Positions 4,743-56,313 of a stretch of DNA of 64,000 nucleotides are shown piece after piece. The DNA is from Thuidium tamariscinum (lineage: Eukaryota > Streptophyta > Bryopsida > Hypnales > Thuidiaceae), in the NCBI GenBank assembly GCA_947034885.2, contig OX344752.2, forward strand, positions 9,052,001-9,116,000, in the 5' to 3' direction. A program made the translations under genes and the position numbers. The notes under the pieces were generated by a model. It was not told the origin of the DNA. It made no database searches and was given only the letters and a program-made list of their open reading frames with translations. Every line of letters starts with the position of its first letter. Within the stretch, counting starts at the first letter, position 1.

Positions 4743-7700
4743 CTAAACCGTGCCCATCCACCATGCACCCTCATCTACAGCATTCAAAACATTAGTGGCA
4801 GTGCCAGCCGTATTAGCACTAGTTGGACGACCCCTTTTCCGCTTAGCAACAGATCTCATAGTAGAAGATAAGCGCGTCGTGCTCCTTTGAACAAAGTGCA
4901 TAGCATAGTCTGATCCAGGAAATAGTAGACCTGTACCAGAGGACAAGCCAACTCGAATACAATTATCATGGTTGTTGAATTTAATGCTTTGCTTAATTCT
5001 AGCAAGGCGATCTTTAGATAGGAAATTGTTCCCATTCAGCTCAGAGACAATTGTAGACTTGTATACGCAATGTCCATTTGTTTCCACGGTTGGCTCAACT
5101 TTGACAAGGGAAGCACTTTCACAAACTCTCACTTGCGCCTCTGTGCAATTGAGCAAATTTGTGATAGCATCACGGGTTTCATCTTGCATGACTACTAAAT
5201 GATTCTCACCATCATCCACAGTGGTATCTTCAACCATATCCCTCATCAGGGGACCAGCGGAGGTACTTGAGTCAATTGATCCTTACACTTGCAGGCGGTC
5301 ACGTAATACTTCGGAATCTCCATCCTCCCCGAATACTGCTCTTCCACCTGGGTTGTAGGCAAAACTCTTTGGATTAGATCTTTCTACAATCCAAGGCTTG
5401 TCATACCAAATTCGCTTCCTTGGTTGGCACTGTGTAGATGGCGCCATATTCAGGACTCGCATCATCTGTTGCGCTTCCTTTAACCCCTCCTGCAGCGCCC
5501 CCACCACCGAATCGTTGTCGGGAATCAAGCTGTAGTCACCCAAATTGCATCGTAGCTCACCTGGTAGTAGCGGGTGAAGGGCTTCCCATATGTTGTCCAT
5601 TTTGTTGTGTTGTCTCTTAAAAGCCAAACCATTTGGACCATATTCTATGGCTGACATGTGGTTCAAGGTATTCGCTGCATTCAACTCATGGAAATCATAA
5701 GCACGCTCATGGTTGTTCCTACCACCAATTCGTGAGAAAAAAATTTCGCTTAAATCACTCCCAGTCAAATGGAGAGGAACAGCTAACTCCGGAAACCTGT
5801 CTCTGAAATGGCAAATCAAGAGAACAACAAAATGACAAGATATTTGAATATCAAGAAAACATTGCAAACTTACAAAGTGTTTGGTCTCCACTAGTTTTTG
5901 AGAGTTCCCCAGTACACTGTGATCTCCATGTTGCAACCAAAGCCTCCAAATTCGAAAGAAGAAAGACACCTTTCCACACAAGACAATCCTAGAACGGAGG
6001 TCTAGTTTTGCTGAACAGAAAATGTCAATGTAGTCAAAGCATATTTGCAAATAAAATTCCGTTCCAAGTGTTCTCTCTTGGCGTGAGTTATCCGCCATTC
6101 GCATGCGGGACAAACATGAACAAACTTGCGCTTGACACAACCTTTGTGCTGCTGCCCAGTTCTGGCGGTCTTTTCTTTCAACATCTATTGTTTTCAATCC
6201 ATGCTCCTTGGTTGTAAAATGTAAACTGCTGAAATACCTGCTCAATGTGACTGTGCAAACACAAATCTCCTCCTAATTGTAGAGTTCTAGTAGCAGAAAG
6301 CAAAGGGTTAATCAATTTTTTGCCATTGTGAATATAATCTTGATCGTGCATCCCACTAGCATTCCCCTGTTCATCTAAGGACGCACTAAACATCCACCCA
6401 TCCCATCCTAAGTCAAGACGGATCCCACTGTCACTCTTGTAATCCTGCAACATCAATTGCCTCCTACGGGAATCTCCATCGCTTGCGTGTCCTATGATAG
6501 GCCCAACCGCACTCAAACAGTTTGTTGCCCAAAGCTTATCAATTGTTTCCCACTGACGCCTAACCCAAGATGAGTTGAAACAATTGCATGTACAACAAGC
6601 AACAAGTATAAGACAAGGCAGTTTATCGTGCAAAGGGTTGACAACAATGATGCGTGCAAAACTGCCAGCTCTGTTTTCTGAAAAGGACTCTAGTAATCGT
6701 TGGTATCCCTCCTCCCTACTCCCGACAATAGGCTTGAAATCAGAAACACAGACGTGGTTCTGAGATGGACCACAAAACCCAGCTAAGGTATCTAACTTTG
6801 GTTCCCACGCAACTCTACCTTTAACTTTTGTTTCGTCTTCAGCTAGTATTATAGGTACAGGACCTGCAATGTTGTGTGCGATCTTTGCATGATTGTAAAT
6901 CTCTGCCACTGATGCAAAAATATCGGAGTGTTCACCTGCTATGAACTACACTCCTTTCTTTACATCACGTTTGACTTCACTATAGCTAGCGCCCCCAAAA
7001 TTTTGAGCAAATAAATCAACCATTCGACAACCCCCATAAACCTTCATCACTTCACCAAGACATTTTGTATTCTTGGTACACCGGTTCCCTGTGGAAGCCC
7101 GGTTGACATTTTGTGCAACATCACGAAGAAAATCCCATAAAGCAGGTTTCCCACCAAAAGCCCCTAATCTATGAGCGTTGACAATACTTTGGCAGAATTT
7201 CATGGCATCATTTGTATTCGAAGCCTCCCTAGCCAATTCATGTAGACTGGGATGCTTAACTTTCAATTGAACAATTCTAGTACGAGCAGATAGGTGCATC
7301 AATTTCTCAGCTTTCAGTTTCCTACGCATTTCACGACCATGTTGTGCTAGCTCAGAAACTGTCAAGTAACCGAGTCTTCTTCCTGCCCCAGTGCTTCGAC
7401 TGCCCCTTTTATCAATACTGCGTTCCTCCCTTACAACTCTTTTTCGGAAGTCCATTTGTAGTGGGATTTTGGAGCACATGGAGCAGGACAGATTCAGAAA
7501 ACCAGACCTAGAATTATTAACCCGGATACACGACCTATGCCTAAACGTTCCATCAATCTCTATTGTTTCACCATTCCTCTCGAAGCTAACCCTAACATGT
7601 GGTTTTGGATACCAAACTCCTCTCGCATGCGCATCATGGAGAAATTCACGAACAGAATAAGACCCCCCCCCATAAGTGGTAGTTGGACCCCTAAATCCCC

Positions 7701-8924
7701 AACACAACAATCCTAAAACAATATTTCTATATGAGGTAGAAGACTCACCCGGATCAACGTGATCTAGACTTGAATCTCGAACAGAATCTGCCTTCTACCA
7801 TCTTCCAAGACTCGGTTGGTTAGAGTGTACACTAACTGCAGACAAAAGAGAAGGTCGCCCTCTTCTTCCACTTAGAAGTGCAGTGTTCTGTTTCTAGGGT
7901 TGATTTGCTTGTTCCACAGCTTGCAAATGCTTCGATGATGCCAAATGATTTCGCAAGTTGGACTCCAGATTCTTCTTTGGCGGGCACAAATAGAGCAAGT
8001 CATGGCAATAAAAGCAGCGCACCTTCATCCAGAAACTTTTTGGAGCAAAGTCCTTGAATGCTTGCAAAACATTGAAAGGCTTTCGTGAATCCCCTGCAGT
8101 GGCATTCACATCTTCTATAATTGCAAGTCCTTCATCTATGAGTTTCTTATGCATCTCCGGAGTCAATGGAGTGACCTTCCCTTTCGAAGCAACAAACTGA
8201 GGGTGGTCAGCATATTGAACATCGTTGTGAGCACACCAGTTCTTCACATGGTTTGTACTCAACAGGTGCTTGGATTTGAAATTATTGAACAAATTTTGAA
8301 TACTTGTCTTGTCATGTTTGCCACTATCCCCACTAATCTCCTTGTGGCACTCAACGCAGAAGATCTTCACAATTCCATTTCCGTTCAAATCAGACGTCCT
8401 TACCAACCACTGATTGTCTTCTTGCGATGAGCATTTCAAATCCCTCTTCATTTTTTCAGACTGTTCAAGGTACCGCTCCCATACCTCGCTGGAAATCAAC
8501 ATAGAATAAGTTAGTGGTCGCCTGAATTTATAACAACGGATGTCCCGGTAACCCTAGAGCTTCCAATAGGATCTGTAAACCGAACTGCAGGGTCTCGATC
8601 TCCACCAGATCACACTGCAGGTTCTCCATGTCCAGCAGAGCAAACCCCATCTGCAGCAATTCGAATATCTCCATCCTCCAGACGCCTCCGTTTGTAAGGT
8701 TCTGGATCTTCCACAGAGGTGGGCAACACATACACGTCCGAAACCACATCGTTCAAGGCTTCCATCTTCAGCTTCAAGCGGTAGCGTTCCTCGTAGTCCC
8801 AGAAATCAAAAGGCCAATCCATTGCTCCGTTTTCTTCCAATCGCAGCCTTAGAGAAGCATATGTTTCATCTTGAAGTACCTTCACCTTGCTAAAGAATGT
8901 AGGAGTCCCAAAGTCAGTGTCCAT
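4743..8924 (-). pseudogene. Decayed multi-domain DDE (RNase H-like) transposase-type gene
   Basis: Four frames that look separate are one broken gene. The frames ending at 7894, 6946 and (after a frame change between about 6200 and 6245) 5283 and 4743 read through in a common phase, interrupted by TAG 7894-7896, TAG 7795-7797, TAG 6946-6948 and TAA 5283-5285. In order: an N-terminal region from the ATG at 8922-8924 (KVLQDETYASL, WPFDFWD), perhaps ubiquitin-like; two CxxC...H zinc fingers (FCVECHKE, RCFYCHDLL); a basic region with CSMC; and a catalytic part. Candidate DDE residues sit in ILAEDET (about 6840), GHASDGDSRR and GSDLSEIFFS, with HDQDYIHNGKK between. The tail holds VYKSTIVSELN and ends in WWMGTV. 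The N-terminal frame joins the zinc-finger part through a further TGA (8610-8612) or an intron; CTAAC and TTTCCAG precede the finger frame. I recall this domain order only from uncharacterised eukaryotic transposase-like proteins. It is not hAT or piggyBac by motif. Confidence 0.7.
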
Positions 8925-9593
8925 CGTCCAAATCTTCACTTGATTCACTATAGTTGTTGATCGTGAATCGCATCCGGAGGCCAATGCTCTGGCCAAGAAA
9001 ACAGAACTAACCCTAAACATACTCCGTGACATGAAATCGTAAACAATCAGCGAAACTGCTTGTATAATCAACCATTTGAAAATTGCTCACAATCGAAAAC
9101 AACCAAAGCTCTACGCAATTTTGAATGCTCAAACCCTAACATGAACCTTGGACATACAATGCGAACTTGAAAATCTAAGAGCAACACAAGGAAAACAGAA
9201 GTCGCAACGGCAAGTTCCCTAAACCCTAACGTCAACCTAACTGGAAGGTCCAAGTCCGAGTCTGACGGATGGTATGATACCACAGCTTCACTCAACGATA
9301 TCCGTCCCTATTTTCATCCATCCAGTGTATACATGTAAGCAACCAGCTGTACCAATTATACTCTTACTACTACTACAGTACTTATAGAGCTGTAAATGAA
9401 CTGATCCTACTAAATATATTTTTTAGGATCCTAATCTTCTATCCATAAATTATATGTAAAAAAATTTAATACTTGAGATTTGTTTCCTACCTATTTTACT
9501 TATAATGTATCTTTGAATTTGAAAATCCCCTACCTTATTTGTAAATCTTTTATAAATTTTACTTCAAAACAATAAAACCTATGCTATATTATG
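8925..9593. other. Upstream flank of the transposase-like gene, then AT-rich spacer
   Basis: Minus-strand frames to about 9295 are short and unrecognised; they may hold 5' leader or decayed 5' exons. From 9300 to 9593 the sequence is AT-rich. I could not find a terminal inverted repeat that pairs with the other side of the transposase-like gene, so the element borders are undefined. Confidence 0.4.
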
Positions 9594-12502: not shown

Positions 12503-15231
12503 AAAACAACTTTTTTCAAAAAACTTTAACCTTACAAAAGTTGTAAAGTTAAACTAACTTTCAACTCCAAAAATCTGTTTTAAATCAAAAGTTATGAGTA
12601 ATTTCAAAGAGGAGTTGGAATGAACATTTTTTTTGACATTTTTAAACACCCTCTCTAAAATTTATTCATAACTTTTGATTGAAGACTTGAAATTAAAAAC
12701 AAATTTTTGGAGATGAAATTTAGTTTGATTTAACAACTTTTTATAATTCAAAGCTTTCTGAGAAAAGTTGATTTACTATACCTAAATGACTTCTTAAGTT
12801 TTTTGAATTAACAAATCTATCAAGAGACAATGCAAGAAGTAAATAAATTGAACTCTATTCATTGTCAAGACACATAAGCTCTAATATGTTCTACTATATT
12901 TTATGCTCTAATATGTTCTAGTATGTAGGTCTAGGGCTCCAATCTTGGCAGTTGCACATCTACATGGCCATTTTCCATTGGTTGAACCACGTGGCAAGGT
13001 GACCTACATGGCCATTTCAATGATGTAGCACTTGGTATGTGGTATATTTTGTATGGTTGAATGTCATTTATGTTTCATATTTTATATAATCTTTTAAAAC
13101 TAAATTAACAAAAAAGTCAATACTTTTTCATAAAAAAACTACACGAATTAACACATCCAAATCAACAAAAAAATCAACACTTTTGTGTTAAATTTTTGTT
13201 AATTTTGCTAGTGAATTCTCAAGTAGTGTAGGCAAGTCTATTTTGCAACTATTTGACAAATGCAAATAGTATGAGGAGCCAATGAAATGTAAGTTTTCAA
13301 TGAGTTTTTTGTATACAACTTTATTAATAGAATGATATGTATATTAGTGAATTTTGTTAAAGTGATGATAGTAGTTGCTTTTTGACAATCTTTAGTGCAA
13401 TGTTTAATGGAGATGAAAATCCTATATAATGTAGGTTAGTACTTTTGTTATTTCCTCTTCAATTTTTTTTTCCATAATGGTTCTTTTTGCTTGTGGATAA
13501 AACCAAAACACTAAAGCCTTTAAGTATAAATTCTACTATGTATGGTTGAAAATTTTGAGAAAATCCTTACATAAATCATTTGTTGTAATTGAAGTTGAGT
13601 GCCTATAATCCTTCTCTAAATGTACAATGACATGGCATTTTAGTTTACATTATAATATTCTAGACTACAACATACACCTACAAGTTTTAATCTAATTTTT
13701 TATTTAATAAGAGTTTCGTTCACTTTTCTTGAAAAAATCACAATAACTTTATAATAAAAATCTAAAAATTTTAAAAAACTATAAAAGGATTATTCTTTCC
13801 TCTTTGAAAAAATATTCAAAACATTTCATTTTCAAACATTAGAAAAAAAGAGCATTCAAAGTGAAGGTTTTTGAAGTTCAACTATAGTTATAATGAATGA
13901 TTGTTAAAATTTTTTTTCATCAATTCAAACACTAATATCTTGTAATCTACAAGGTAAAAATTTCCAAGAAAATTTCTTCATCTTCCAAAATAGCTTACTA
14001 CAAGATCCTATGGTCACATGAGCCTAGAATTTTTTTCCTTCAAAATTTGGTATTTATATTAGAAATAGCAATTTTGGAGTTGTTTCGGTGAAAACATAGT
14101 ACAGGAACTTTATGGGTGACTTTTCAAGCCTCCTACCTCAATGCTTGATGAACTGCATATATGTAACTAAATAAATAAATTGTATATAAAGAATTAATAT
14201 GGTTACATTTGTTGAAATGGCATATTACATTTTCAAAAAATGAGATATTCAAGTAACAAAGCAATAGGAACAAATCTCAAATTCCAAAACATGTATCTAA
14301 AAAAATTACATTGTTTCATATTTCACCATTTTATCAAAACTAACAAATTAATCATTTCATTGTAATGGACTCATTTACTCTTAACAAGTATTGTAGGGTG
14401 GTTGTAAAAAATACTTGTCCTATTTTATATCACACCTTCAACTTGATTTCTTTTGGGGCCATAAATTTTGCATTGTTGCTTCAAATGACTTAAAATTCAT
14501 TAAAAAAGAAGGTACTTATGACAATTATACATTGTATAAAAAAATTTGGAATCTAAAAATAATGTTTTTCCATTAAAAATGGCCCCCAATATTTTAACAC
14601 ACTTGCCAAATTAGGGTTTAAAAAAATTATTGAGTACTCAAATAAATGAATTTAAAGTTGAAATTTGGAAGAGATGGTCTTCTAATAGACTTGTAGATAT
14701 CCTATGAAAGATTTCTAGAAATAGTTTATTTTACATGTTGTAAAAATCTACAAAATAAGCTTCTTTCTCCTTACATGTAAAAACATGTAAAAAGTTATTT
14801 TGGTAATTGTTTTGGTGAAAGTTCATCTCTACAAAGTTGCTACAAACCATTCTTATAATCTCCCTAATAAGTCTATCCCTTCATGTAGTAGTCCTTCAAA
14901 CATTTAAAGCAAGTCGATACTTGGAATCCCAAACAACCCATCTTTCTTTTTTGTAGTGGAGATTCCTTTTTGGATTGCATTCAAGAATCTTTTGAAGAAT
15001 TTAATGGCATGGATCTACAATAACTAAACTTGTTAGTATAAAAATATACTTGGTGTCACTAAAACAAATTAGCATCACTGCAAACTACTTATTTCCTTAA
15101 AGAAATTATCATAATACAATCAAATATACAAATAAGCTAAATCAATGCACAATACATTTCACTAACAACATGTCTTCTAAACCAAGATTCAACTACAACA
15201 TAAAAACCTCAATTGGCAAAGGCAAGGACTT
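12503..15231. other. AT-rich non-coding sequence with decayed repeats
   Basis: No gene supported. 13880-14130 resembles the end sequence found at 30420-30660 and 52680-52890 (a CACTAATATCTTGYAATC block and a final GGAACTTWAKGGG). 14395 starts a diverged copy of the AGGGTCATTGCAAG terminus without a visible right partner. The rest shows only short AT-rich motifs. Confidence 0.5.
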
Positions 15232-18200
15232 TCAATCCTCACCAAATGAAATGTCCTCAGAATCATTTGTATCACTAATATCATCTACAAATAACCCTTT
15301 ACTATCACGATCAATCAACTCATGTCTTCGAATAAAATGATCCATTGTAAACGAAGGATTGCTAGGAACATTTAATTCACACAATAAACATAAGTGATCC
15401 AAATTCGGAAGTCGCTTCAACTTGGTATTACAACAATCTAAGGTCTCCAAACTCACCAAGTCTTCCACTCCAGGGATCTCTTTAATGCTAGTCCCACTCA
15501 CATCCAAATAAGCCAATAGCTTCAAGTGACCCAAAGGTGGAAGTGATTCGAGCGATGTGCATCCCTCAAGGTCTAACAACGTCAATAAATACAATTCCTC
15601 TACACCACGAATCTCAATGATGCCACTATCCGCCATGTTCAAGTGAGTTAGTGCCTTCAAGTACCCCAAGTCTGGTACCGTTTTCAAACTATCGCACCCC
15701 ATAACATCCAATTTAACCAATGTTTGCAATCCACTCAAGCCATGGATGGTGGAGAGGGCACTACACCCTAGAAACGACAAGACTTCCAAGAGCCTCAATG
15801 CCTTCAAACCCATGCTTTCCACCAAATAGTCGTTGAATGAAAACTCCAATCTCCGCAATTGAACACATTGATTGAAGTTTGTAAATTGCCAAAAGGAGCC
15901 AAAACCTCCACAATTCTCAAAGAAAAATTCCTTCAAAGAAGAAGGGAATTGCATATCAAGTAGATCGCAATAGAAAGGGCAATTTACTATTTTAACCCAT
16001 CCAAGACCTTTGGCACCTTCCCATCTATTCACCACCTTGAGTTTTGTACAGTCCATGATGTCAAGGCACCGCAAATTAGGAAAATCTTCCAAATCAACGC
16101 TCTCAAGTTCTTGACATTTATACAAACTCAAAACTTTTATTTGTTGCATTGAACATGGCTTGGTGACAATCACATCACAGAATAGATTGCAAAAAGTGTT
16201 CAAGCGGGGATCCTTGCTCAACACTTTCCTTCGAAGTTTCTTGTAAAGATCTAGATTTGAGATATCACACGACTTCTTGTCCATCCAACAATCTCCCCAT
16301 TCCTCCTCTTCCCAAAACATATCCCGCAATGCCACCAACTTGCGATCTCGGAGTTCATAAATCTAATCAACACAACAATTTCCCATACAAGCTAAGAATG
16401 GTCGTACATATTAGAAATGAGTAAACCATGTGGTGTAGCTAAAACACACTTAATGATCTAATTTTTGTTAAAATGAAGAAAGTAATCCATATTGTAAACT
16501 ATAACCTTTATTGTATGCACCAACAAAATTAGTTCCAATGATAATTGAAAAAACAATATCAAAAATCAAAACAAAATTCAAAAGCTAAGTAGATCAAGAA
16601 CAAAAATTTACATGCTTGCGGATCTCCAACGGATTTTGATCTTGCACAATTGCTAACCTTCGACACAAAACTTCCAAAGTCATTTTTGGTTCATCATCAT
16701 AATATTCTTGCAACTCCGTTTTAATTGACAAAAGTTGAAGTAGATTGAGGAAAGTACATTTCAATTCTTCTTCTAATTTATTGAATTCTTCTACAACCTG
16801 CACAACATACCAATATTATGAAATTGTAATTCCATTTGTTGCTCTCACAAAATCATATTCCTAAATCAAACAAAATAGATGAATCCAAACTTACAATTTC
16901 TCTTAAAGTTGGTTTTTTAAGCTCCAATCTCTCCAAGACTGGTGGACATTGTTGCAATGGGTTGATTGGACTTGATGCAAGCTTGTCCACATCCATATCA
17001 CCCTCTAAGATGGATTTTTGACGCTTGCGGGATTGATCTTTTAAAAAAGAACGGCGATTATAGATTGTGTGTAATTGATTGTACCATACTTCATGCTCCT
17101 CCCCTAATGGCGTTGCCAACTTCAAGGACCGCTTTTCATTTTTTGTCACTTCACAAAATTCCTTCCCCATCATCACGCAATAAGCATTCAAATCCTTGTA
17201 AGCCTTCAATAAAGTGTCAAAGCGATTTTGACATTGTTCTTTGGACCTCAAAGGCCAACCATGTTCAATGTTCTCAGAATTAATTTTTTCAACAATGAGA
17301 TCCCAATGCATAGCACCCAACTTGCCCTTATTAAAATGGCCACCCTCAACCATGCATTGCAACAAAATCAAGGTCTCTATTTCTTTCCATTTCTTGCTCT
17401 TGATTTCTTTGACAACTTTAGATGAACCTTGATGTTCATGCCTCTCCAAAGGCACTACTACAACTTCTTCTTGAAGCATGGGTTGAATGCTTAATAGATT
17501 CCCATCATCAACTTGTAACCTTTTACAAAGATGGGAGATGAGGCGTCGGATATAATTACGTTTGTCCGAAACCTCCACTCCAAAATTGGGTTGGGTAAAG
17601 TGTGCACCTCCCCCTAATGAAGAGATATTCAAGTCTTGTGATGTTGACTTTGAGAAAAAAACTTCAATGTAATGCAAGATGTACAAACCGCAATCATAAC
17701 CATTGCCTTGTTGTAGAACCTAACACAAATGATGAACCCATCAATGAGAAATCCATTATAAGAGCTCTTGTAAAACTCTTATCAAACAAAGAAAATCATG
17801 CCTCCACCACACAAAGACATCAAGTTCTATCACAAATAGACTAGGGAGAAGAGTCCATACCTTAACTTGAACATACTTCATTTGAACCAATGAATGTAAT
17901 ATACCAAGCATGTTATTTGAAGCTTCAAACCTTTCCATCCATGCTTGTAATATAAAACTGCATACATAGTATAATATCCATATTTATTGTGAGTAGCAAC
18001 AATCATCTACTTCCCCATGAAAGACATAAATATTCAATATCCATTTAGAATTTTACAATGGCAACAATACCTTCAAGCTACAATGTGCATGACAACTTAG
18101 CAAATCACTACAAGTGCATGGTTCACAAACTATTGAATAAAAACCATAAGAAAATGACCTTGTGATCACTTCAAGCCCACTCATTCTTTACAATTAGCCA

Positions 18201-19309
18201 AGGCTATAATTAATAGGATTTATGAGAATCATAAAACATGCATACAAACAACCATTTGCATGGTTCTCAATTCATGGTCCTATTCAAAAACTCACCTTTT
18301 CACTTGACCTTCAAAGGATTCATGTTTCCCTTCCATGGGGTCCAAATGAAGGATACAAGGTGAACCCTTCCTTTCACCTATCAAGAAACATCCAATTGGA
18401 TAAGATAATGAAACAATTCACAAAAATGAATTTGCCAAAGAAGCACACTCAAGAGAAAAATCTTACCAAGTGAGTTTGGATTTAGGCTCCTAAGATGACA
18501 AATGACAAGGAGGCTCCAATGTGAACTACCAACCAAAAGAAGTCCCATTAGAAAATGCGAGAGCCAAAACAACTTCCTCCTTAACACAATATAAACAAGT
18601 TGGACGTTCTCACTACTATCCTCTTTATGAGCAAGGTTACACATCTTAGTAATTTCTAACAACTCTTGTGAGAACTTGTCAAGGAACAAGGACCAAACAC
18701 CAATCCTCAAATCAAAACCTCTAGCAAGTTGCAAACCAACATGAAAAGTCATGACCATCACCTCACAATGACGGGAATGAAAACAAAGTCCTTCTCAAAG
18801 AGGTTCACATCTCCAATCCACTTTTGTAATTGCACGAAATCAACCCGGCATTCATCAACGCCCATGGATGCAGTTGTCTCTAAAAGTTTTCGGAAGAAAA
18901 AGCTGTTGAAGAAGTGAAACTGGTTTTGGTGCTCTCCAGAAATTGCTTTCACTTTCAAGTACCTGCAGTGATAGCAGCTAATAGGTAATGCTTTCGAGCC
19001 ACAAACAACGTGTATTCTCTTCGATCTACAAACTTGTTGAAATCAAACCAAGTAAACTAAGAGTACATCAGCATTGCCATAGTCAATTATCTACGAAACC
19101 AAAACACTTGTTGACAGCGGGATTACTCACTTCATATAAAAGTCGATTATGTTGTCAGTGAGAAACTTCCCGGGTTGGAGACTCGCAAGATCTCTTGCTG
19201 TGATGGTCACAGCATCAGCTTCACCTTCTGGGTACGTAAGCACATCATCTGCCCCAAAAGTCGCAGCAAGTTCAATAAACCGCATTCTAAGAGTAATTGA
19301 AGGTCCTTT
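15232..19309 (-). CDS. ULP2-type SUMO protease / trihelix-like / LRR fusion protein
   Basis: Eight exons (19309-19131, 18962-18762, 18525-18467, 18377-18296, 17957-17861, 17719-16895, 16797-16612, 16362-15232) splice at GT-AG sites in matching phases and sum to 2760 nt, 919 residues plus stop (counted from the exon 1 edge; first ATG at residue 9). Residues about 34-265 form a C48 (Ulp1/SENP) protease: ITARDLASLQPGKFLTDNII, FHFFNSFFF, catalytic His129 (SSHWSLLVIC), Asp159 (CILHLDP), Gln210 and Cys216 (QQGNGYDCGLY). All four are intact, and the long His-Asp spacing fits the plant ULP2/SENP6-7 group. Residues about 315-427 resemble a trihelix domain (KKWKEIETL, RSKEQCQNRF). 482-543 is an acidic helical linker (VVEEFNKLEEEL). 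About 615-895 is 11 LRRs with an LxxLDVxG pattern. Expected role: SUMO removal or chain editing at targets bound by the LRR or DNA. Two adjacent genes are possible but the phase agreement argues for one. Confidence 0.82.
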
Positions 19310-19374
19310 CTAGAATCTAAATGGGTGATAGAAGCAATATTGATGTTGCTAAGACTACCCATTGCAGAAATGCG

Positions 19375-19849
19375 TCAGGAAAAATCACCTTCACCAACTC
19401 GAGCTCTCGCCGTCACTTCTAACGAGATGCCAGAATGGGAAGAACGATTCTGGATCGGGTGCTGTGCATAGTTGCGGGGTCCAACAGAGCCACCAACTTC
19501 AAAATCTCGGTTGCTCCACGCTTCAGACCCACCTGGCCTGTCAGGGAAAGAAGCATCGCCCCAAAAGGAACACGTCTTAGCTCCAAGCACATCATCCATC
19601 AACAGTTTCTTGCTGTACTATGTTGTAATTGTGTCACAATTCTCTCACATTTCAGTACCTGAAGGAGACAGCAGGGTCTTGCAAGGATGGCGAAAACAGA
19701 GGATGTTGGCCATGGACGCCATTCGAGAAAGAAGGTTCACTTGGCTCAAGGGCAGAACCAGGAGCTGGCACATAGAACTCCTCCCTCGGCTGAATTCCCA
19801 AACTCGAGTCCAGGAGGTTCGAGTCGGACGTGCCTGGATCTCCCATCAT
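19375..19849 (-). CDS. Candidate 5' exons of the SUMO-protease gene (unresolved)
   Basis: An exon from ATG 19847-19849 to 19659 (MMGDPGTSDSNLLD..., Ser/Pro-rich) and one from 19612 to about 19390 (MDDVLGAKTCSFWGD..., Gly/Ser-rich) join in phase through a donor AG|GTACTG and acceptor TACAG|CAAG. The intervening 46 bases would be an unusually short plant intron. I could not find a junction with both good sites and correct phase between this part and the exon at 19309. ULP2 proteins often carry poorly conserved N-terminal extensions, so these may belong to the same protein, or be leader sequence. Confidence 0.35.
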
Positions 19850-20293
19850 TCGATCTCCTTCCTAGAATTCTGCGACACCACACCCCGTCCTGTTAAAGCA
19901 ATGGGCGAACTGCAGTTGCACTCACTACCGGGGGCCCCAAGCCACTCCGCAGTCAGTCTGAAGGGAGAGAGCGAATCCCTGTAGCCCCGAGCCCTCTTCA
20001 GAAGATACCTCAAGCCAACTACGACAGAAATAGAAACTGAAGAACTAAGCCAATCGAGAAGTACAAGCGCGTACTCCTCCCACATTTGTACCAGATAGAT
20101 AGAGCATTGGACAAATTTGAGAGTCAACAAAGTGCCCACAAGTCGGACACGCGCTGTGCATCGAACCAACTTGGCAACCATGCGCCAAAGTGAGCAGCAG
20201 GAGGCAGACACACTTCTAGATAGGCATGGATGCAAGCACGAGAGAGGGAATTATACCTTGGAACGATTCAAAGCCCCAAACTGGACGCTTCTT
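19850..20293 (-). other. Possible 5' leader exon with a hydrophobic frame
   Basis: A minus-strand frame (ATG within TGGCGCATGG, about 20180) begins MVAKLVRCTARVRLVGTLL and has two hydrophobic stretches. A good donor (A|GTGAGT) lies near its end and an acceptor (TTCTAG|GAAGG) just before the ATG at 19849, but the phases do not join the two frames. I regard it as a probable untranslated leader or an unproven exon. Confidence 0.25.
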
Positions 20294-20301
20294 TATTTAT
20301 A
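20294..20301 (-). promoter_or_regulatory. Candidate TATA box for the SUMO-protease gene
   Basis: TATAAATA on the minus strand, in the GC-richer region about 450 bases upstream of the candidate start at 19849. It is the clearest TATA-like site upstream of the gene. No transcript evidence is available here. Confidence 0.35.
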
Positions 20302-22340
20302 CAGCAAGCAGAGGGATTCTGTTTGATCAACTACAATACATGCCACAACACAGAGAATAAGTGATAGTATTGAGGCTACCGACAAAAAAAACTCCACTTC
20401 GGAATGAAAAATTTGAGGCGGGAAGTGCAGGTAATTTCACCAGATTTTATTCAAATCATGCCTGAAAGTGGGATTTAAACTGTCGGCACCTGTACGGCAG
20501 CTACCTAACAATAGAGAATCAACAAGATTCGCCAGACTTGGCAACCTCAACCAAATTCTTGCAGCCACTGAAGCGGAAATAAAAAATTCAAAATAAAGAC
20601 AAAGATAAATACCTGAGTTCTGCCTTCCAGCTGCCAAAGTCCTTAAAGTGGCACTAACGATCCTTGAAGTACTAACGTGCTCGGCAGAAAGCAGAGAAGA
20701 AGCTCCCACAAAGCCTACTTCTTTCCTCACCGACAAAAAACAGCAAACCAACTAAGACAGAACACAAAGAAATGAGCGTAGATCGTCCAAATGAGTGGCC
20801 AGCTTGAGAAGTAAGTAATCTTCAAGGTAAGAACAAGAGACCAAAATTGATCAAGAAGTTCCACCGATCTCAGAGACACCCGTCCTGAGCATCCTGAGCA
20901 CCGTGCGCAGGGAAGCCCACGTTAGCATCAGCGCAGCTACATCAAAGCGACGGTTCACGTGAGCGAGACAGGAACAACACGGATGTCTATCGAAAACTCA
21001 TCGAGAGCAAGCACGGGGCGGCGACTCAGCAGTGCCTAGAGCAGAACAGTAACAACATAGAAAACGCAAGCATCGACAGACAATAACCCATCAAGCCAAA
21101 AGTTAACAGCAAGAAAGACAGGGATAACAAACAAGCCTGCCGAGCAAGAGCAAGGCTGTGGCTCACCGAGAGAGAGGCCCCAGCACGAGGTAGGAGATTG
21201 CAGCGTGAAGCAACCCGAATGCCCACTAGGGAAGCTTATGTACAGACTTTGGGGAAGCAGGTCGTCCGAAACTTCCCCTTGAAGTGTCCGACAACGGAGC
21301 GTCTGTATTGTACTGTGCAACGCTACCCCCTAATCGTCAGGGCTCTGTGGTGGGGTCATGCTGGAGTGATTTACTGGCGATTTTCCAGAACGTTTTGACC
21401 TCATCACGCGTCAATACTACTCTGGAGTGACATTTGGAACGTTTCAAACTGATGCCACTTCCATTCTTCCGACAACGGAGCTGGCATCGCCCACTGATGC
21501 GATAAAATCCAGTTTCAGAGCTCTGCGCCTTTGGAGACTGGACATCCAAGTTACAATTCCTTGGACTCCGTGCATCACTGGTCGGCAGCTGTTTTTTTCC
21601 GGCATCATGGGGCCAGACTGCACCATTTCAAAATAAATGTCTTTTTTTCACCAGATAAAAGTAATCTCTATATTCACCTGAAATTCTCTAGTTCTCATTA
21701 AAATGTGGATGAAGTCACCAAAATTGAATGAAAAAGTGTATGAATATGATGGAAAAGTGTTTTGAAGTCCACAAGACGGATGAATGTAGAAATATAATGC
21801 TTCACCAAATTTGAAGTGATCGCCATCTTGCCACCTTCTCAAAAACTAAAAAAAAAAGGGCTGCTGGTCATCGGCACGGGAGCAACGAAATACTTCGACA
21901 ATGATCGTCACCGTCGGACGGAGAAGCCCACCGAGAACCCACTCGGACGATATTCTTCTTCCGTCATCGGTGCCTCACCCCTCAGACCTTGAGCATGAAG
22001 CTCCCTTTTTCTGTGCGTTTGGCAGCGGGAGGAACCGGCATCCCAACAAGTCCATTCTTCCGACATCGGAAATGATATTCTCGATCATTCTCCCGGCATC
22101 CCAACAAGTCACTTCAGTGATTGTTGAGCGAGGGGAAAAATAGCAGAACCTAGTGGCACCTAAAAATTGCACTTGGAAGAAAGTTGATACCATAATCACA
22201 GGGGAGATAGGAGTCTTTACCTTAAGGAAATTAACAGCAAAATTACCTGGTCTTTTCCACTTCATTCCATTCACGAGCACCTCGTAAAAATTGGACCATT
22301 CCCACTTCATTAAACAAGAAAATGATGGCAATATTACCTT
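20302..22340. other. GC-richer upstream region, no gene resolved
   Basis: GC is clearly above the surroundings. Minus-strand frames at 20437-20751 and 21036-21320 have possible splice borders (GTCTTAG|TTGG, CTCAG|GTATT) but no recognisable domain. Several TCCGNNNNCGGA palindromes occur: 21287-21298, 21468-21479, 22059-22070, and a one-mismatch copy at 21960-21971. Candidate functions are promoter/enhancer sequence or 5' exons of a transcript. Confidence 0.4.
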
Positions 22341-22877
22341 GAGGAAAACTATGAAATGAATGTCGACATTTTAATTTGTAAAAAATAGGAATTTTTTTTT
22401 TGAATAAAACTAAAAATTGGCCATTTGAGAAGACTTTGTGGTGATGAGGTTTGACTAAGAAAATGAGTTCAAAATCATTTCTAATGTTTTGAAGTGTGCG
22501 CGCAAGGGATGCCTGTTTGCATTAATGTGGAAGTCATAAAATAATGTTTTTTTAGATGCCCTTTAAAAGGGATATGTATACTTACTACAAAAACATACCA
22601 CAGAAATTTCAACCAAAATAATTAATTTAAAATAATAAATTGTATAAAAAACCTCTAATCTTGAAAGTGTGACAAATTAACAAAAATAACTTTTAAGTAT
22701 AAAATGATTTTTTTTTAATTCTAAAAAATAGAGAATATGATTGCAATCAAAAACTCTAGAAATAGATTTCTTGGTTTAGGCATTGGATTCATCAATCAAA
22801 AGGTATAGCATTGGACAAGAACAAATTTTGCAAAGTGCTACAAAAGTGGTCGTTGTTTCTTGCAATGACCCCTATTT
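22341..22877. other. AT-rich non-coding spacer
   Basis: No gene or clear repeat seen apart from a fragment of the TTTCTTGCAATGACCC terminus near 22858-22874, just before block A begins. Confidence 0.4.
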
Positions 22878-23245
22878 GCCTTCTTAAAGTACCTTCTTAA
22901 AGAAATATACATTAAACACATTTTTCATATTTTTAAGAATTGTTTTTTTGTTTTTAAAGTACTCCCAAAAAACCATGAGTATTATGGCCAATTGAAAGTA
23001 TACACAAAACACTTGATGTTTCTTGCAATGACCCATAGAGCTTATAGTTCATCAATTTGTCATTCTACAAATTAGTTTTTTCTAAAGTTAGAAAGGCCTC
23101 TATATTATTGCCTTTTTATTTACATTTAGGATATACTTTTTGATTGCTTAATGTCTAATTTTAAGCCTCTTTAATCTATTCTATGGTATTTTGGAATGTA
23201 CTTCTAATGGTATTAATTCCAATTACTTCTTATAAATAGTGAAAA

Positions 23246-23250
<5 letters not shown>

Positions 23251-23316
<66 letters not shown>
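23251..23316. repeat. (AT)n microsatellite, about 33 units
   Basis: Uninterrupted AT dinucleotides. Block B has no such tract at the matching place (near 45870), so it expanded after the duplication or contracted in B. Confidence 0.95.
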
Positions 23317-23900
23317 TGAGGAATAGAGAGAGAGACACTCACACACATTTATAAGGCATGTATGTCAATTGCATTGTAGATTCTCTTACAATATAGATAC
23401 TATTAGTAAATGAATATAAATATAAAAGTTTATCAATTAAATTGGGACTTCAAAGACTTCAAAGTGACCACTTTAAATACTATAAATATCCTATATTTAA
23501 TAAGATTTAATTCTGCAAATAATTTTTAAAGGTCTAAATGTAAATCACATGTATTATTAAAACACATTTAGCCAATATTTAGGTTGAAGCAAGCCCAATT
23601 AGATGTAATGTGATATAACTATGCAACTTTGAAATTAACAAATATAGTGTTCAATGCTTTAATCATTAATAGCATTTTTAGTAACAATTCCAAAATATTG
23701 GTTAATATTTGTTTATCAATTAATTATTTATTACATATACATTGTGACCACATATAGAGAGATTAATGTCTATGTGCAAAATTAGAAAACCACCACAACA
23801 TATTTCACATTCATGAGAATTATGAACTATATTGTTCCTCTACATGGAGGCTCTATTGTATGACTTTGAAGAATTTTGTAGGTCCATGTCTTAGTCACAC

Positions 23901-24111
23901 CACTACAAGAGAAAGGGGTGTTTTCATTATAATCTTAGAGATAAGATTTTAAATAATGACCTCTTTTAAGAGATTTTAAATAAAAAATATGTCTCTTTCT
24001 AGTAATTTTACTAGGAAGAAACATATTTTTTACTTAAAATCTCCTAAAAAGGTCATTATTTAAAATCTTATCCCTAGGACTATACTTAAAACACCCCTTT
24101 CTCTTGTAGTG
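23901..24111. mobile_element. CACTA-type MITE, 211 bp, block A only
   Basis: CACTACAAGAGAAAGGGGTG pairs with CACCCCTTTCTCTTGTAGTG, and the two halves are complementary over almost the full length, so it is a near-palindrome. CACTACAAG ends are the hallmark of plant CACTA (EnSpm) elements and derived MITEs. Flanks CAC and CAT suggest a 3-bp target duplication. Block B near 46100 lacks it. Confidence 0.85.
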
Positions 24112-24212
24112 CATTAGAAATCAAGCTAATTGAAAGCACGGAAGAAGTAAAGTCATTCAAAGAAAGAATCTATCCAATATGCCCAAGGTATGAAATTTGG
24201 AAGTAAAAAATG

Positions 24213-24793
24213 CTCAGGGAGATCAGTTACTGTATAAAAAACAAACTACGTGTGTTAAAGTGACTTTTCGACCCCCTATATACTTTTTTATAAACTATGA
24301 TGTCAAGCTATAATTTTGAGATGTGCTTAATAATGACTATAAGTTTCTATTGCCAAAATTTTTGAAATCAAGTAACATATGAAATGATTTCTAGAGTAGG
24401 TCGAAAAATGAACTATACTAGCATGATTTTCAACTCAAACATTTATAGAGAATGCATTTAAATGACCATCGCATCAATATTCAAGAAAAATAAACTGTCA
24501 ATGAAAATCTATTTTTAGCAATTTTTTGTTCATTTTTTAGACAATTTTTTTAATATAAAATAGGGGTGTGAAAGTTATTTCTAACTCTACAGTGTATTTT
24601 TTTACTTCAAAAATTTGTAACTAATTATAATCAATACATAAAATATCAATAATTCAAGTTATAAAATTTTAATGCAGGGGAATACTCTCATTTTTTTCTT
24701 TTCTTTTTTATTTAAACTTTAGAAAAAAAATAGGGGGTCCAAAATTTTTAACACACGTGGTGTCTAAAGGTTATTCTAAGTGATCTCCCCGAG
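24213..24793. mobile_element. TIR element with perfect 8-bp target duplication, block A only
   Basis: AAAAAATG at 24205-24212 and 24794-24801 flank CTCAGGGAGATCA...TGATCTCCCCGAG. Imperfect TIR similarity extends about 60 bases (CACGTGTGTTAAA, ACCCCCTA). Block B reads AAAAATAG once at 46195-46202 with no insert. An 8-bp duplication fits hAT-type transposition. No transposase frame is present, so it is non-autonomous. Right ends of relatives lie at 9594-9634 and 56267-56313. Confidence 0.85.
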
Positions 24794-24881
24794 AAAAAAT
24801 GACATCTTCAATATAAACATGTCATTTGATGACATCAAAGATGAGATACCCAACCACTTTATATAGAGGGTATTTCAAAAT

Positions 24882-26181
24882 GTTTGACCCCTAAAGAATT
24901 ATTGTGTCTTCAAGTAACAAAATGGATTTCCAATAGATTCCTATGACTACAATCTTTGGTGAAACTCTTTTTTAAAATTTCATAGGATAGAAGAGCTAAT
25001 TAGCTTTGTGGGAATATAGTTTTTATTTGAATTGGTGCTTATGAGCAAAATTATACCACAAAAGTCAAAAACTAAATTCATAGGACAACAAAAATAAATT
25101 TGCAAAAAGAAAAAAAGAAACATTTAAATTCTTTTCCTAAAAGAATATATTTTTTCTATATGTGAAGCTTTGATTCATTCTAGTTGGATTAGTAATGAGA
25201 AAGTTATGAACAATATTGTTTTTTAAGCAATTTCAACAATTTTCTTGGAAAAATCATTTTGATTGCTCATATCTTTCAATCTAGGTTGTTACAAGAAACA
25301 CTTAACATTTTTGTTCCAAAATGACCTAAACACTACATGACAATGACTTTTGAAATAATTGTTTTTGAATGAAAAAAATATGGGTAATTTGTAAAGGACT
25401 CAAAATAGTCTATGTGTGAAAATTCTAATCTAGAAAAATTTATCTCTAAAATGTATGCTCTTTCAAATAGTAATGAAACATGCAAGGAAATAGATATTTT
25501 GGAATTTGGTTTTTTGAAAATAGTAAATTTCTTTTTAAAAATTAAACAAAGAAAACATTTTTTAGACTTGAAGGTGCTTCTTCTTGCCCATATTCATCTT
25601 CAAGAAAAAGATTTTGTATTCCCTACAAGTGTACCTTGGTAGTGTACTTTGAGTACATGTGGAAAGTGGATTCATTACTATTTTTAGAAAATCTCTTCAC
25701 AAGCTTGTGTAACTAGAGTAGAAGTCTTTGTATAACAATTTCTGCCTGCTAATTTCTAATTTTGGATTAGAAATGGTCTTAAAATCCATTAAGAAGTCCA
25801 AAGTAGACATCGAATTGGGGTCATTTTTAAAATATTAAATTAATTTTTTTAACCTTCAAAAGATTATACAATGTCTAGAACTCAATGTGTAGCTTCATTT
25901 CAAATTTCATAGAAAATGGACATACCATGCAAAAGTTATGAGGAAAAACCCATCTCTCCAAGGCATCACGGAAATCCAAAAAGGCAGACAAGTGTTTCTT
26001 GCAATGACCCATCTACATAGTCAAACTTCATGAAATTTTTACCACATGATCTCCAACAAGTTAAGTAAAAGATCCTAGAGTTAGATTCTAAAAAATGTTC
26101 TTTTTGTTTTCTTCGATGAATACAATAGAAATGGTAGTTTTGAGTGGTTTTGATAGAATAATGGCCTCAGTCCTTTAAGGG
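24882..26181. mobile_element. Old TTAA-family element with a nested MITE
   Basis: GACCCCTAAAG near 24886 and CCTTTAAGGGTCAA near 26170-26181 match the ends of the younger copy at 53927-54851, as does much of the interior (GCTTTGATTCATTC, AAAGTTATGAACAAT, AGAAATGGTAGTTTTGAGTGG). The element at 25283-26010 sits inside it. The corresponding sequence in block B is about 46271-47660, so both insertions predate the duplication. Confidence 0.55.
25283..26010. mobile_element. AGGGTCATTGCAAG-family MITE nested in an older element
   Basis: Left terminus AGGTTGTTACAAGAAACAC and right terminus GTGTTTCTTGCAATGACCC correspond to the ends of 11767-12502. The same insertion is present in block B at 46734-47479. 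Confidence 0.65.
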
Positions 26182-27771
26182 TCAACCCCTCAACTCCCAA
26201 GAGGCTCAAAAGTGCCACACACAATCTCAAAGTCCAATTCAAAGTATCATGACTTTTGCATCCCATTTCCAAATTTAATAAAATTTGTTGGAAATCTACG
26301 CATCTTAATGTGGTTTGTGTGGTTAAATTTTCAAATCAATCCAGGATGTGCAATTTCTTTGGAAGCCCATCAAAGTTTATAGGTTCAATTTCAGTTTACC
26401 AAAATGCATTTTATAGCTGCAACTTTTGGGGCTTGTATCTCCTTTATCTAATGTTTGTTTTCAATAAAATTTGTTGAGTTATGTTCCTTTAGAAGTCTAG
26501 TTATTGTAGTCAAATTTTTATGGTAATCGAAGTTGTTTTGAATGTTTGGGAGCAATTTGAAGTTCAAAAAATGAACATTTTTGGAATGCAATGAACTTAG
26601 GTGGCTTGTTTCTTCTTTATACGAAGTTCATTTCCAATAAAAAATTTTAAGAAGTTGGAAATAATAGTCTTTTTTTTGTGGCTGAAATTTCATATCAATC
26701 CAAGAATTTATGAATGATTCAAAAGCATTTTAGTAGAAGGAGGTTTAGCTCTAGATGTATTTTTGCAACTATTTTTTGACATTTCATTTGAAGCCATTTT
26801 GTAGACACAATGAATCAATTGAATGACATTTTTTCACCAATGTGTTTGAATGTTCATTTTGAAGCACTTTCTAGTTTTTTTTTTCATTTGAGTAGGTTTA
26901 GAATCAAATTTGACCTCCTAATGTGTTTTTAAGAAAATCTTAGCATCTTTTTTCAACATTTAAGCATTATAATCTTGCAATCTATGTGGCCAAATGATTC
27001 CAAATTTCATCCACATCATCTACAACACACCCACAAGAAGATTGTATAGTTGAAATTTTTATACCTCAGTGACATGTAGACTTACAAGGTTTGAAAAGCA
27101 ATGACGTTTTTGAATCCAAAAAGGTCTTGGACTTTGAGGGATTAAGCTAAAAGACCTAGTCTAGTCAAAGTCTTGGCTTCAAATTAAGTCATTAACAATC
27201 AACAACTATCATAAACAATTAAAAAAAACAATCAACAACAATCTTAACCCCTAAACGCCTCAATCCTTTTTTGAATTTTTGCACATTTTTGCTTCTAGCT
27301 TTGTACAGATACATCATCTACCAGAATTTAATGAATTTGGTCATTAAGGAAGGTTGTCTTTTATAGATTCAAGTATTACATTTGATAAATGCAAAGTTAG
27401 TTGGATGAAACAGTGCCTTGAAACCCTCCGTTCATCGTCTAGGATATGGACGTCGGAGCGTTTCAAGGTTAAATATCAACAACAATTGATATTCAAGATG
27501 GTTGCTTGCCGAGGACTTTACAAAAAAACAAAAATGATGTGGAAGAAAAGATTTTTGTTCCGAGTGGCCAAGGTGAATTGACCCCCTTGCTCGGCCGTTT
27601 GTGAAAACACTGGAATTTTATTTTTTTCAAATTCTAAATTCATATTTGAAATCAGAGGCTCTAAATTAGCTTAGAAAGTGTACAAGGTAAATTAGATAAG
27701 TACAAAATAGGGAGCTTTTTGTTTAACTTGTACTCTGGAATTACTTGGAGTGGCTGAGCGAAAGGGCCAGA
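26182..27771. other. AT-rich, decayed repeats; no gene
   Basis: Starts with CAACTCCCAAGAGGCTC and contains a GGACTTTGAGGGATTAA terminus near 27123-27147, suggesting another decayed TTAA-family copy; a block B equivalent is at 47660-48660. 27240 carries CTTAACCCCTAAACGCC. 27568-27760 matches 60300-60510. The short frames are not protein-like. Confidence 0.45.
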
Positions 27772-28067
27772 CATTGGGAGGGATTTGAGGCCTGGAAAGG
27801 GCCGTTTCGGGACTGTTCCCAAAACAGGGTTTGGGAACGACTGACCGCTGGTCAGCATTTTCAAAAAAAAAAAAAAAAAAAAAAAATTGGGATCCTGAAA
27901 TATTGAAAAAAGTCCAAATTTTTTTTTTTTCGGAAAAAAAAAGTCGATGATGTGGCAGTCGCTCGACCACGTCGGATTCCTGCAGAACTGCGTTCCTAGA
28001 CCCTGTTTTCGCGATTTCGGGCTGTGGGAACTCACAGGCTCCCAGAGCCCTCAAATCCCTCCTAATG
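27772..28067. mobile_element. MITE-like element with CATTRGGAGGGATTTGAGG ends
   Basis: CATTGGGAGGGATTTGAGG at 27772 faces CCTCAAATCCCTCCTAATG ending at 28067. The interior has A and T homopolymers and GATGTGGCAGTCGCTCGACCACGTC. The element at 57995-58356 has related ends and the same interior motif (GACGTGGCAGTTGCTCGACG). The long frames on the minus strand here come from the element, not from a gene. Confidence 0.65.
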
Positions 28068-30664
28068 CCACCCTGACCCTTCCAAAAGATTAATCAAATG
28101 TAGATTACATTGGACCTTTGTTTATCTCTCTTGAGCGAGCCCCAATGTCAAGTTATTGTTGATGTGGCCAGTTATATTATGCAATGAAGATGTTCAAAGA
28201 CTTTGAGGTGAAATAAACCTTACTAAAGTATTAGTTTTAGTGAATTTTTAGTAGAATATCCTTTAAATTTTTAGCATCAAAAATTGGATCTTGAATATAA
28301 TAAATATTTATGATTTTTCTATATGAAATTTGTGCAAGTATATCAATTGCAAATCTTGATTTTCTTGTATTAAGGGCTCTTTATAACAGACCTTAGATAC
28401 ATTAGATGTTGGAAAAAATCACATGAGAATGACAAAATATTACAAAGTAGATTTAAAAAATTTAAAAATTATTTGTAATAATACATATTATCTCTTCTTA
28501 TCTATAATTAAACAAGGCCATGTTAGATTTTATTTTTAAAATCTATTCTAATTTATAAATAATGAATGTTTTTTAATGTGCAATGTTATTCTAGCTTTGG
28601 CACCCTTTCTTAGGCTTTATTCTTTTTTTAATGACTTTTGACTTGATTCTTTTTAACCTAAAAATTGAGCTATAGATTTTAAATTAAAGATGATCATTCC
28701 ATATAAGAATTGAGTTGAAATTCAAATATGTAAATTGAGAAAATTGATTTTTATTCTTTAAGAAATTATTGTTTTGTAGAACTTTCTACAATATAGAAGG
28801 AAAAACTAAATTAGAAATAGTTCTTAGATGGAATTGAAGTAAATAAATTCCAATGGTGAAATTGATTTGGCAAGCAAATCAAACTCTGTGAAACATTTGG
28901 AATTTGGATATGAAAAGTAGCAAATATTGAGATAAAAAATGAATCTTTTAAGTTGTTTTTTGAAGAAGCCATAATCTATTTGCCTCAGAAAACGAGACTC
29001 TGTAACTTCTCATCACTAATCAATATGGACAAAAGGATTTTCCATAAGAAATCAAAATCTTAAAAATAAATTCTTAGTCCTTAAGATGTTTTTTTTATAT
29101 TGTTTAGAAAATTGATTCATGAATTTAGGATGGCATAATGTTGCACCCACACATTGATTGAAATAAAAATTATATTTTTAGGGTACTTGAATTTTTTTTC
29201 TATCTTTGAATAAAGCTTCAAAAAATCATGACAAAATTTGAAGTCATTGTAAAAACCCTACTTGAACCTTGAAGCATCACTCAAAGATCCTTCTTTTAGG
29301 GATTAACCTCATGTTTTTTTTTCATGACTTCAATTTTAGATTTGACATATAAATAGGGAATCAATAGACTTTAAATCACTTTTGTGCTTTCACCCCTTCA
29401 TGATCAAATATCATAACCTTTCAATTTATAAAAAATACTCTTGTGTTTTCTTTTCCCCTTTAAGATCCTTAATACATTTAGTTTGACTTGCTTTGGTTAC
29501 AATTTTTCTTAAAATGATGTAACTGGTCTAAATTTTCATTGGCTCTTTGCTCATAATTTAGCTCAAACTCCTATATCCTCAAAGAAAAGAATTTAGGCAT
29601 TTTTGGAAATGGCTTTTCAACCCATTGCACAAGAGACCTTTGAAGCTTCTTAGAAGGTAATCCCTAAAGGATCAACATGCAAAATTTAGCAACATAGCAA
29701 TTTTACCATTTTAGGTAGGTACATGTCAATAGAAGATTCCATGTTTTGGGCCGAAAATTTAATAGAAGGTCAAGATGAGGAATATTTTTCATGTGCACTT
29801 AAAATCAAGACATTTGAAAATATGAGTAAAATATTATGGCATAATATGTTCCTTTTTTTGTAAATGGATAGTTTGGGCACATTGGAAAAAATCACTATTT
29901 GCAAAATCAAAGATTCAAAATTGGTTTTTTTAGACTAATTCATACATGGAATTTTGAATCATTCTATTTGATCAAAGAGTCAAAAGTTATGAGGAGTTTT
30001 TCATTTATGGGTAGTTATAGATTTTCTACTCTAAAATAAACTTTTCAAGTCCCTTATTTTACTCAGTATTCAATCTTCTTTGAAAAAAGAATAAGTTAAA
30101 GAAAGAGTTTATAATGTTTTTTGAAAAGAAAAAAATCATACGATGTAGATTGTTTATCACAACATTGTAACCATTGGGATTGTCATTTTTTAATTTCATA
30201 ACTAAATTTTTAACAATTTAATATTTTGAGTCATTATCTACTTCTTTCTACTTAGTATTTTTTCATATATGTTGTACAATTCCAAATGATCTAAAATTTT
30301 TCAAGCAAGTGGCCAACTTGCCTTGAAGAATGAATCCATAGAAGCACCACTATTTTGATTTTTTTTTTTTGGTGCAAATGTGAACTTATGGAGTGCAACT
30401 CCTTGGTTTTTTGTAAGACCCAAATTTTTTTCTATGAATTCAAGCACTAACATCTTGCAATCCACATGACAAAATATTTTGAAATTTTTTCCACTTGTTT
30501 TCAAGTTAACATACCACAAGAACTTATAGTTACATGTGTCTAAAATTATTTTTTCCCAAGAACTTATAGTTACATACCACAAGAACTTATAGTTACATGT
30601 GTCTAAAATTGGGGTTTCATACTAAAAATGGCAATTTTAGGGCATTTTGAGGAACTTAAGGGAT
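28068..30664. other. AT-rich non-coding part of block A
   Basis: Matches 49040-52880 in block B. No gene. A local tandem duplication of ACAAGAACTTATAGTTACAT occurs at about 30500-30610. The stretch 29655-30663 begins TAATCCCTAAAGG and ends AACTTAAGGGATCAA, which may be another decayed TTAA-family copy. Confidence 0.45.
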
Positions 30665-30765
30665 CAACTTCCTACCGTGTCTGCTTGTCTTGAACCATCT
30701 GCATCTCCAGAGAATATAGTGGCATGCCATGCTCGGATTGTGATTGTCGAACTGGGCAAGCCGTG

Positions 30766-45506: not shown

Positions 45507-45706
45507 ATAGAGCTTATAGTTCATTAAATTGTCATTCTACCAATCAATTTTTGCTAGATTTGGAAAGGCGTCCATATTCTCATCTTTTTGTTACATTTTG
45601 TAAACACTTTTTGGCTATTTAAAGTCCAATTTTAAGCCTCTTTAATCTCTTCTATGGTATTTGGGAATGCACTTCCAATGGTATTAATTCAACATGCTTC
45701 TTATAA

Positions 45707-56266: not shown

Positions 56267-56313
56267 CCCCCCGCACGTATGGTTCTAAAACGCGGGGAGT
56301 GTCCTCCCCATGA
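56267..56313. mobile_element. Right terminus of a second CTCGGGGAGATCA-type element
   Basis: CCCCGCACGTATGGTTCTAAAACGCGGGGAGTG...CTCCCC parallels the right ends at 9594-9634 and 24750-24793. The interior 55920-56260 is also related. A clear left end was not found. Confidence 0.45.

Follow-up and report, generated by a model that had tools for sequence, protein, structure and literature searches.

The window analysed here is a 64-kb stretch of the genome of Thuidium tamariscinum (C4:9052001-9116000; the genome searched comprises 363 Mb in 19 contigs). Among solved structures, LHCII chains are the best matches of a light-harvesting protein from this genome; leaving out two very long chains of entry 9vfj that head the ranking, the top entries are 8htu and 7xqp, structures from Physcomitrium patens, as would suit a moss. 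On its minus strand, at 19849-15232, it carries a gene of ten exons and 1031 codons from the ATG, whose product would combine a C48 protease, a trihelix-like domain, a linker and a run of leucine-rich repeats (LRRs) (Table 1). All splice junctions are GT-AG and all ten exons join in phase. An earlier, sequence-only reading of this DNA had eight exons joined in phase over 920 codons, and these stand at every junction it gave; the two 5' exons that it missed bring the model to its full length. Its first exon, taken to begin at 19309, in reality starts at 19305 (acceptor AAG) and is exon 3 of the complete model. An equivalent of exon 1 was modelled both in a tandem copy of the gene and at C4:6.62 Mb. 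A spliced aligner queried with the window protein returns the identical model, which checks the aligner only, as the query is the model itself.

Table 1. Exons of the protease-trihelix-LRR gene, in positions of the window.
Feature	Position	Strand	Content
Exon 1	19659..19849	-	starts ATG ATG; N-terminal extension; absent from the sequence-only reading
Exon 2	19389..19537	-	absent from the sequence-only reading; counterpart in the tandem copy
Exon 3	19131..19305	-	predicted C48 protease begins
Exon 4	18762..18962	-	C48
Exon 5	18467..18525	-	C48; catalytic His241 codon 18521-18519
Exon 6	18296..18377	-	C48; catalytic Asp271 codon 18342-18340
Exon 7	17861..17957	-	C48
Exon 8	16895..17719	-	end of C48 (Gln322 codon 17710-17708, Cys328 codon 17692-17690) and trihelix-like domain
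Exon 9	16612..16797	-	linker, winged-helix-like first half
Exon 10	15232..16362	-	remaining linker, 12 LRRs (~16140-15316), acidic tail, stop

The tandem copy (C4:9024611-9029224) has the same ten exons, with 898 of 1031 amino acids identical and one in-frame TGA, which falls in the LRR exon. No exon alignment between the two genes contains a gap (3.1 kb of exons), and their identity is 86% in exon 9, 90% in exon 10, 88-98% in exons 1-8 and 86-98% in the introns. Chance does not explain the fusion: the copy repeats all ten exons ungapped, and the same domain order recurs at another four loci, where trihelix, linker and LRRs each have an exon of their own. The C48, trihelix and LRR parts are very likely fused in a single gene. 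Could the model instead have joined two adjacent genes, one for the protease and trihelix and another for the linker and LRRs? Both partial architectures are found elsewhere in the genome, but the introns between trihelix and linker and between linker and LRRs were modelled in all six loci with the triple order as well as in three loci on C2 described below, and all modelled linker exons are multiples of three. The argument from shared introns is not fully independent, because the aligner query was the window protein; taken together, we regard two genes joined only by the model as extremely improbable.

Elsewhere in the window, a large stretch is duplicated in direct orientation between 22875-37800 and 45350-59610; the duplication is broken into pieces, which lie about 21-23 kb from their counterparts and are 79-87% identical. 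A near-perfect inverted repeat lies at 61994-62755, with arms of 379 nt that are 95% complementary across a gap of 4 nt. On the minus strand at 4746-9086 six long open frames (158-329 aa) follow each other in a run, none of them at the Pfam cut-off; they are perhaps an unknown gene or a mobile element. Rfam and tRNA scans of the 64 kb found nothing.

The front of the protein matches Peptidase_C48 (PF02902) at residues 160-347 (Pfam, E 1.1e-26), and the catalytic His241, Asp271, Gln322 and Cys328 are all present, as the earlier reading had proposed. Its assignment to the ULP2 type is likewise borne out, the nearest solved proteases being SENP7 (1.5e-25) and yeast Ulp2 (9.4e-15), with SENP1/2 ranking behind. 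By profile and catalytic set, the window protein would be a C48 SUMO protease of the ULP2/SENP6-7 class, with cleavage of SUMO as its predicted activity. The middle, also read as trihelix-like from the start, matches Myb_DNA-bind_4 at residues 427-498 (17395-17180; E 1.4e-7, 32.3 bits over a cut-off of 27), which points to a trihelix-like domain with putative DNA binding. Several LRR models match as well, LRR_4 among them at E 3.1e-12, so that the three kinds of Pfam profile that the reading had named for a check, Peptidase_C48, Myb_DNA-bind_4 and LRR, are all found. AlphaFold2 gave a mean pLDDT of 40 for exon 10 alone and of 34 for exon 8 alone, the latter as a single sequence. Queried with exon 8, the prokaryote and viral collections returned no viral relative and a single short C48-like match, in Bradyrhizobium uaiense (42% over 35 residues). 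SUMO-protease effectors of rhizobia are known.

The C-terminal half has a resemblance of its own. Pfam confirms the LRR end, in which we counted 12 repeats by hand, spaced 22-26 residues, where the first count had been about 11. LRR_R13L1-DRL21 matches above its cut-off and LRR_RPS2 below, and the repeats appear to be of the plant NLR type; no Pfam match to NB-ARC was found in the window protein. Among the matches listed, the top LRR relative outside the family lies at C1:38746378-38747094, and the same strand carries a match to NB-ARC right beside it. The 178 LRR matches in all include 56 non-family places, merged by hand from the listed rows. With an NB-ARC set of 117 of the 126 listed matches (nine second pieces dropped) and 125 of 170 candidates scored, so that counts are lower bounds, at least 42 of these 56 listed places have an NB-ARC within 15 kb upstream on the same strand, and none of the nine family loci has one of the 117 listed NB-ARC places within 60 kb.

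The linker between trihelix and LRRs was compared with winged-helix regions of NLRs of the same genome, in segments that were picked after a likeness to the C1 locus had been noticed and with joins in two NLR loci made by eye; hhalign gave E 1.2e-4 with a probability of 55% for the full comparison, and E 2.1e-5 (77%) for the C1 NLR winged helix alone, both E-values being those of single comparisons. None of 200 column shuffles scored as high as the full comparison. The match to the C7 NLR alone is weak (E 0.025), and that to six canonical winged helices alone fails (E 0.19). When the linker profile was run over the compared loci, the C1 NLR reached only E 0.18, below one chance-like match, and Pfam and PDB profile searches of the linker returned no winged helix. 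The C1 NLR (C1:38.746-38.749 Mb) is tied to the window gene by the top non-family LRR match, by the profile match of its winged-helix region to the linker (E 2e-5) and by an acidic tail after the LRRs; it differs in carrying an NB-ARC, and neither C48 nor trihelix was matched in the stretch compared. The linker and LRRs probably descend, though this is unproven, from an NLR whose NB-ARC was lost.

How widely is this arrangement distributed? The trihelix part has 28 matches in the genome, at 25 distinct places, and within the stretches examined the order C48-trihelix-LRR occurs at six of them: the window gene, its tandem copy, and C4:4.60, 10.73, 10.76 and 10.78 Mb (at 10.73 and 10.76 the protease front lies beyond the examined stretch, and matches to the front are listed in place). 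The earlier reading had called for a search for orthologues of the same domain order and had named, as one case against itself, homologues whose parts are always separate genes; paralogous loci of that order exist in this very genome, and at all six the parts are joined. Proteins of the four loci at C4:4.60 and 10.7 Mb are shorter, because they align to the window protein only up to about residue 964 and then end. Three other places (C4:6.62, C5:12.34 and C4:17.30 Mb) have C48 and trihelix, and the family profile found no LRR in the 3.7-5 kb downstream of them. A further three, all at C2:45.12-45.15 Mb, have trihelix and LRR, with no C48 in the 1.5-3.8 kb upstream or among the genome matches listed. 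The modules are therefore separable, three loci lacking a detected LRR and three a detected protease. The remaining 13 trihelix places showed neither C48 nor LRR at E 1e-3 within loci of 3.2-3.4 kb. Additional trihelix-like clusters lie at C2:38.09-38.23 Mb and C3:5.58-5.64 Mb, with no C48 or LRR match in 3-kb loci.

In the C48-trihelix relative at C4:17.30 Mb, Ser replaces the catalytic Cys and Glu replaces the Gln, and this relative is likely a pseudo-protease. An AP2-like domain suspected by eye behind that protease had no Pfam match. Wherever the catalytic residues are covered, the other seven C48 members have them intact, C4:10.76 and 10.73 being covered for Gln and Cys only. Trees of the C48 and trihelix parts of the nine C48-bearing genes agree on two groups, ((window, copy), 6.62) and ((4.60, 10.73, 10.76, 10.78), C5), with 17.30 a long branch that falls outside by midpoint rooting only. 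A trihelix tree of 25 rows puts the C2 trihelix-LRR genes elsewhere; in it 17.30 and the C48-less 17.26 join the window side (94/89, with a long-branch warning). As each triple clade has an LRR-less sister, the LRR part was either lost more than once or joined more than once.

Selection differs along the protein. By Nei-Gojobori counts, omega of the C48 part is 0.12-0.69 over nine pairs (0.41 pooled over three pairs) and that of the trihelix, in the eight pairs for which a value exists, is 0.19-0.60 (0.37 pooled over three pairs); ranges of 0.36-0.45 for C48 and 0.19-0.37 for the trihelix were also obtained. Protease and trihelix are under constraint, with omega around 0.4. The linker also evolves fast, its omega being 1.28 in the window pair and 0.88 in the four-gene clade formed by C4:4.60, 10.73, 10.76 and 10.78 (clade B). 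For clade B, omega at the exposed LRR sites is 2.14 over six non-independent pairs; these sites are the solvent-exposed positions of LxxLxLxx, of which 53 of 60 are covered. Three disjoint pairings, themselves mutually non-independent, gave 2.20, 1.80 and 2.48, with omega at or below 1 in 0.4%, 1.8% and 0.1% of 5000 bootstraps, respectively. None of 20000 random sets of LRR positions reached the observed nonsynonymous count, and 158 reached the omega. When the mask was slid along the repeats, the nonsynonymous count peaked at the true register (232, next to 216 at +5 and 211 at +3), whereas omega rose above its true-register value at +5 (3.47) and +8 (2.37). High omega is thus not unique to the strand register, because the +5 and +8 masks also exceed 2 and only the raw count peaks; the higher values there imply that the variable zone reaches past the strand. 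Exposed LRR positions diversify in clade B, a clade related to the window gene. Between the window gene and its tandem copy the same sites have an omega of 0.90, which is not significant (omega does not exceed 1 in 56% of bootstraps), and the C2 trihelix-LRR clade has 0.72 over three pairs. Diversified exposed LRR sites are a hallmark of plant resistance genes.

Might these genes be functionless duplicates, decaying or carried about by a transposon? C48 and Myb/SANT domains do occur in plant transposons, and the tandem copy has its in-frame TGA. Transposase matches, however, are absent from the 20 ORFs searched of the 31 in the window of at least 110 aa, and inverted repeats of at least 16 nt were not found on both sides of the gene within 13000-22000, so that a transposon origin found no support in these ORFs and repeats. 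Decay sits badly with 3.1 kb of exons that align ungapped between gene and copy, with conserved introns, and with dN/dS below 1 in enzyme and trihelix. We consider functionless duplicates very improbable.

The domain build suggests a receptor-like protein with deSUMOylation as its output. The explanation that we favour, and to which we give roughly even odds, is a functional family whose members combine a trihelix-carrying SUMO protease of the ULP2/SENP6-7 type with, behind it, the C-terminal half of an NLR (winged-helix-like part and LRRs, no NB-ARC), such that recognition by the LRRs would lead to removal of SUMO, probably in immunity. The ligand recognised by the LRR face would be variable, most probably a protein from a pathogen or a host protein that a pathogen has altered; the winged-helix-like linker would relay ligand binding; the trihelix part may position the enzyme on DNA or chromatin; and SUMO would be stripped from nearby regulators. 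Immunity, ligand, localisation, allosteric coupling, DNA binding and SUMO cleavage are the parts of this explanation that we infer, from sequence and selection. The sequence-only reading had already suggested that an LRR sensor might recruit the deSUMOylase, or that it is recruited to DNA. The exposed-LRR substitutions of clade B alongside a constrained enzyme, and the NLR-like LRRs and linker, speak for recruitment by an LRR sensor, but in the window gene's own pair the exposed-site signal is not significant.

A constrained enzyme and trihelix would also suit a SUMO protease outside immunity, whose LRRs and trihelix select substrates or chromatin sites in the manner of LRR F-box proteins, with LRR divergence reflecting turnover of partners or substrates after duplication. 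The linker-LRR profile has weak PDB matches, and although an NLR is among them, so are an F-box protein with LRRs and the LRR part of a receptor; the three LRR-less relatives fit a dispensable adaptor. Set against this, an NB-ARC precedes at least 42 of the 56 non-family LRR places listed, and an omega above 1 at the exposed sites of clade B is not what a stable adaptor would usually show; such a non-immune role seems to us rather unlikely. Alternatively, the protease, the trihelix or both could be an integrated decoy, a bait for pathogen effectors that act on the SUMO system, with the LRR part signalling through a partner NLR. The probably dead protease of one C48-trihelix relative is in keeping with this, as is the presence of Peptidase_C48 and Myb_DNA-bind_3 among NLR integrated domains in the available part of PMC4759884. 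Yet no listed NB-ARC lies near any of the nine family loci, the other seven C48 members keep their catalytic residues at covered positions, and the diversifying part is the LRR face and not the protease, which makes a decoy improbable.

Returning to recognition coupled to SUMO removal, a more ambitious form of it can be put forward tentatively, with less than even confidence: a receptor class without NB-ARC, in which the sensing half of an NLR, winged-helix-like segment and diversifying LRRs, would drive a built-in SUMO protease held at chromatin by the trihelix, so that recognition would lead to deSUMOylation directly. If the family works as proposed, a single protein would link recognition to the control of chromatin, with no NB-ARC switch in between. 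The family brings its own controls, in members without LRRs, members without the protease and one with a probably dead protease.

The link between SUMO and plant immunity is a genetic one: according to the accessible part of PMC9174647, loss of the SUMO protease ESD4 leads to EDS1-dependent autoimmunity, and the introduction of that paper cites SPF1/SPF2 as controlling WRKY33 SUMOylation. ULP2-type proteases termed SPF-like are restricted to bryophytes, lycophytes and ferns in the portion of PMC11371177 available. With the ULP2/SENP6-7 proteases, including plant SPF and SPF-like proteins as described in that portion, the window protein shares the C48 profile, the catalytic set and SENP7 and Ulp2 as closest solved structures; it differs from them in adding trihelix, linker and LRRs at the C-terminus, and the main text of PMC11371177 mentions neither LRR, MYB nor trihelix. 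With trihelix (GT) transcription factors it shares a Myb_DNA-bind_4 match above the curated cut-off, whereas here the domain sits inside a protease-LRR protein and DNA binding is putative. The hydrolase-, kinase- and other atypical NLRs of bryophytes (PMC11218826) also place an enzyme domain ahead of an LRR half, but the window protein has no NB-ARC; protease, peptidase, trihelix and Myb are not mentioned in the main text of that paper, nor C48, Ulp1, SUMO or Myb in PMC5067614.

Open-licence PMC papers, taken without supplements, yielded none that brings together Ulp1, leucine-rich repeat and trihelix. No description of a C48-trihelix-LRR protein was found in the open-licence literature searched. 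The earlier claim that no described protein joins the three parts has to be qualified by C48-NLR fusions without a trihelix, since the available part of PMC4759884 counts Peptidase_C48, from Pfam annotation, among the integrated domains of NLRs for the angiosperms Fragaria vesca, Glycine max and Zea mays. No functional study of any C48-NLR fusion was found in the literature searched, in the portions of text available. Judged by the available part of PMC4759884, these fusions resemble the window protein in that a single predicted protein holds both a C48 domain and an NLR-type region, but they were selected for an NB-ARC, whereas the window protein has none and carries a trihelix between C48 and LRRs. 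The C48 entry in the integrated-domain table of that paper, as far as its available part goes, is the nearest published counterpart found in the literature searched.
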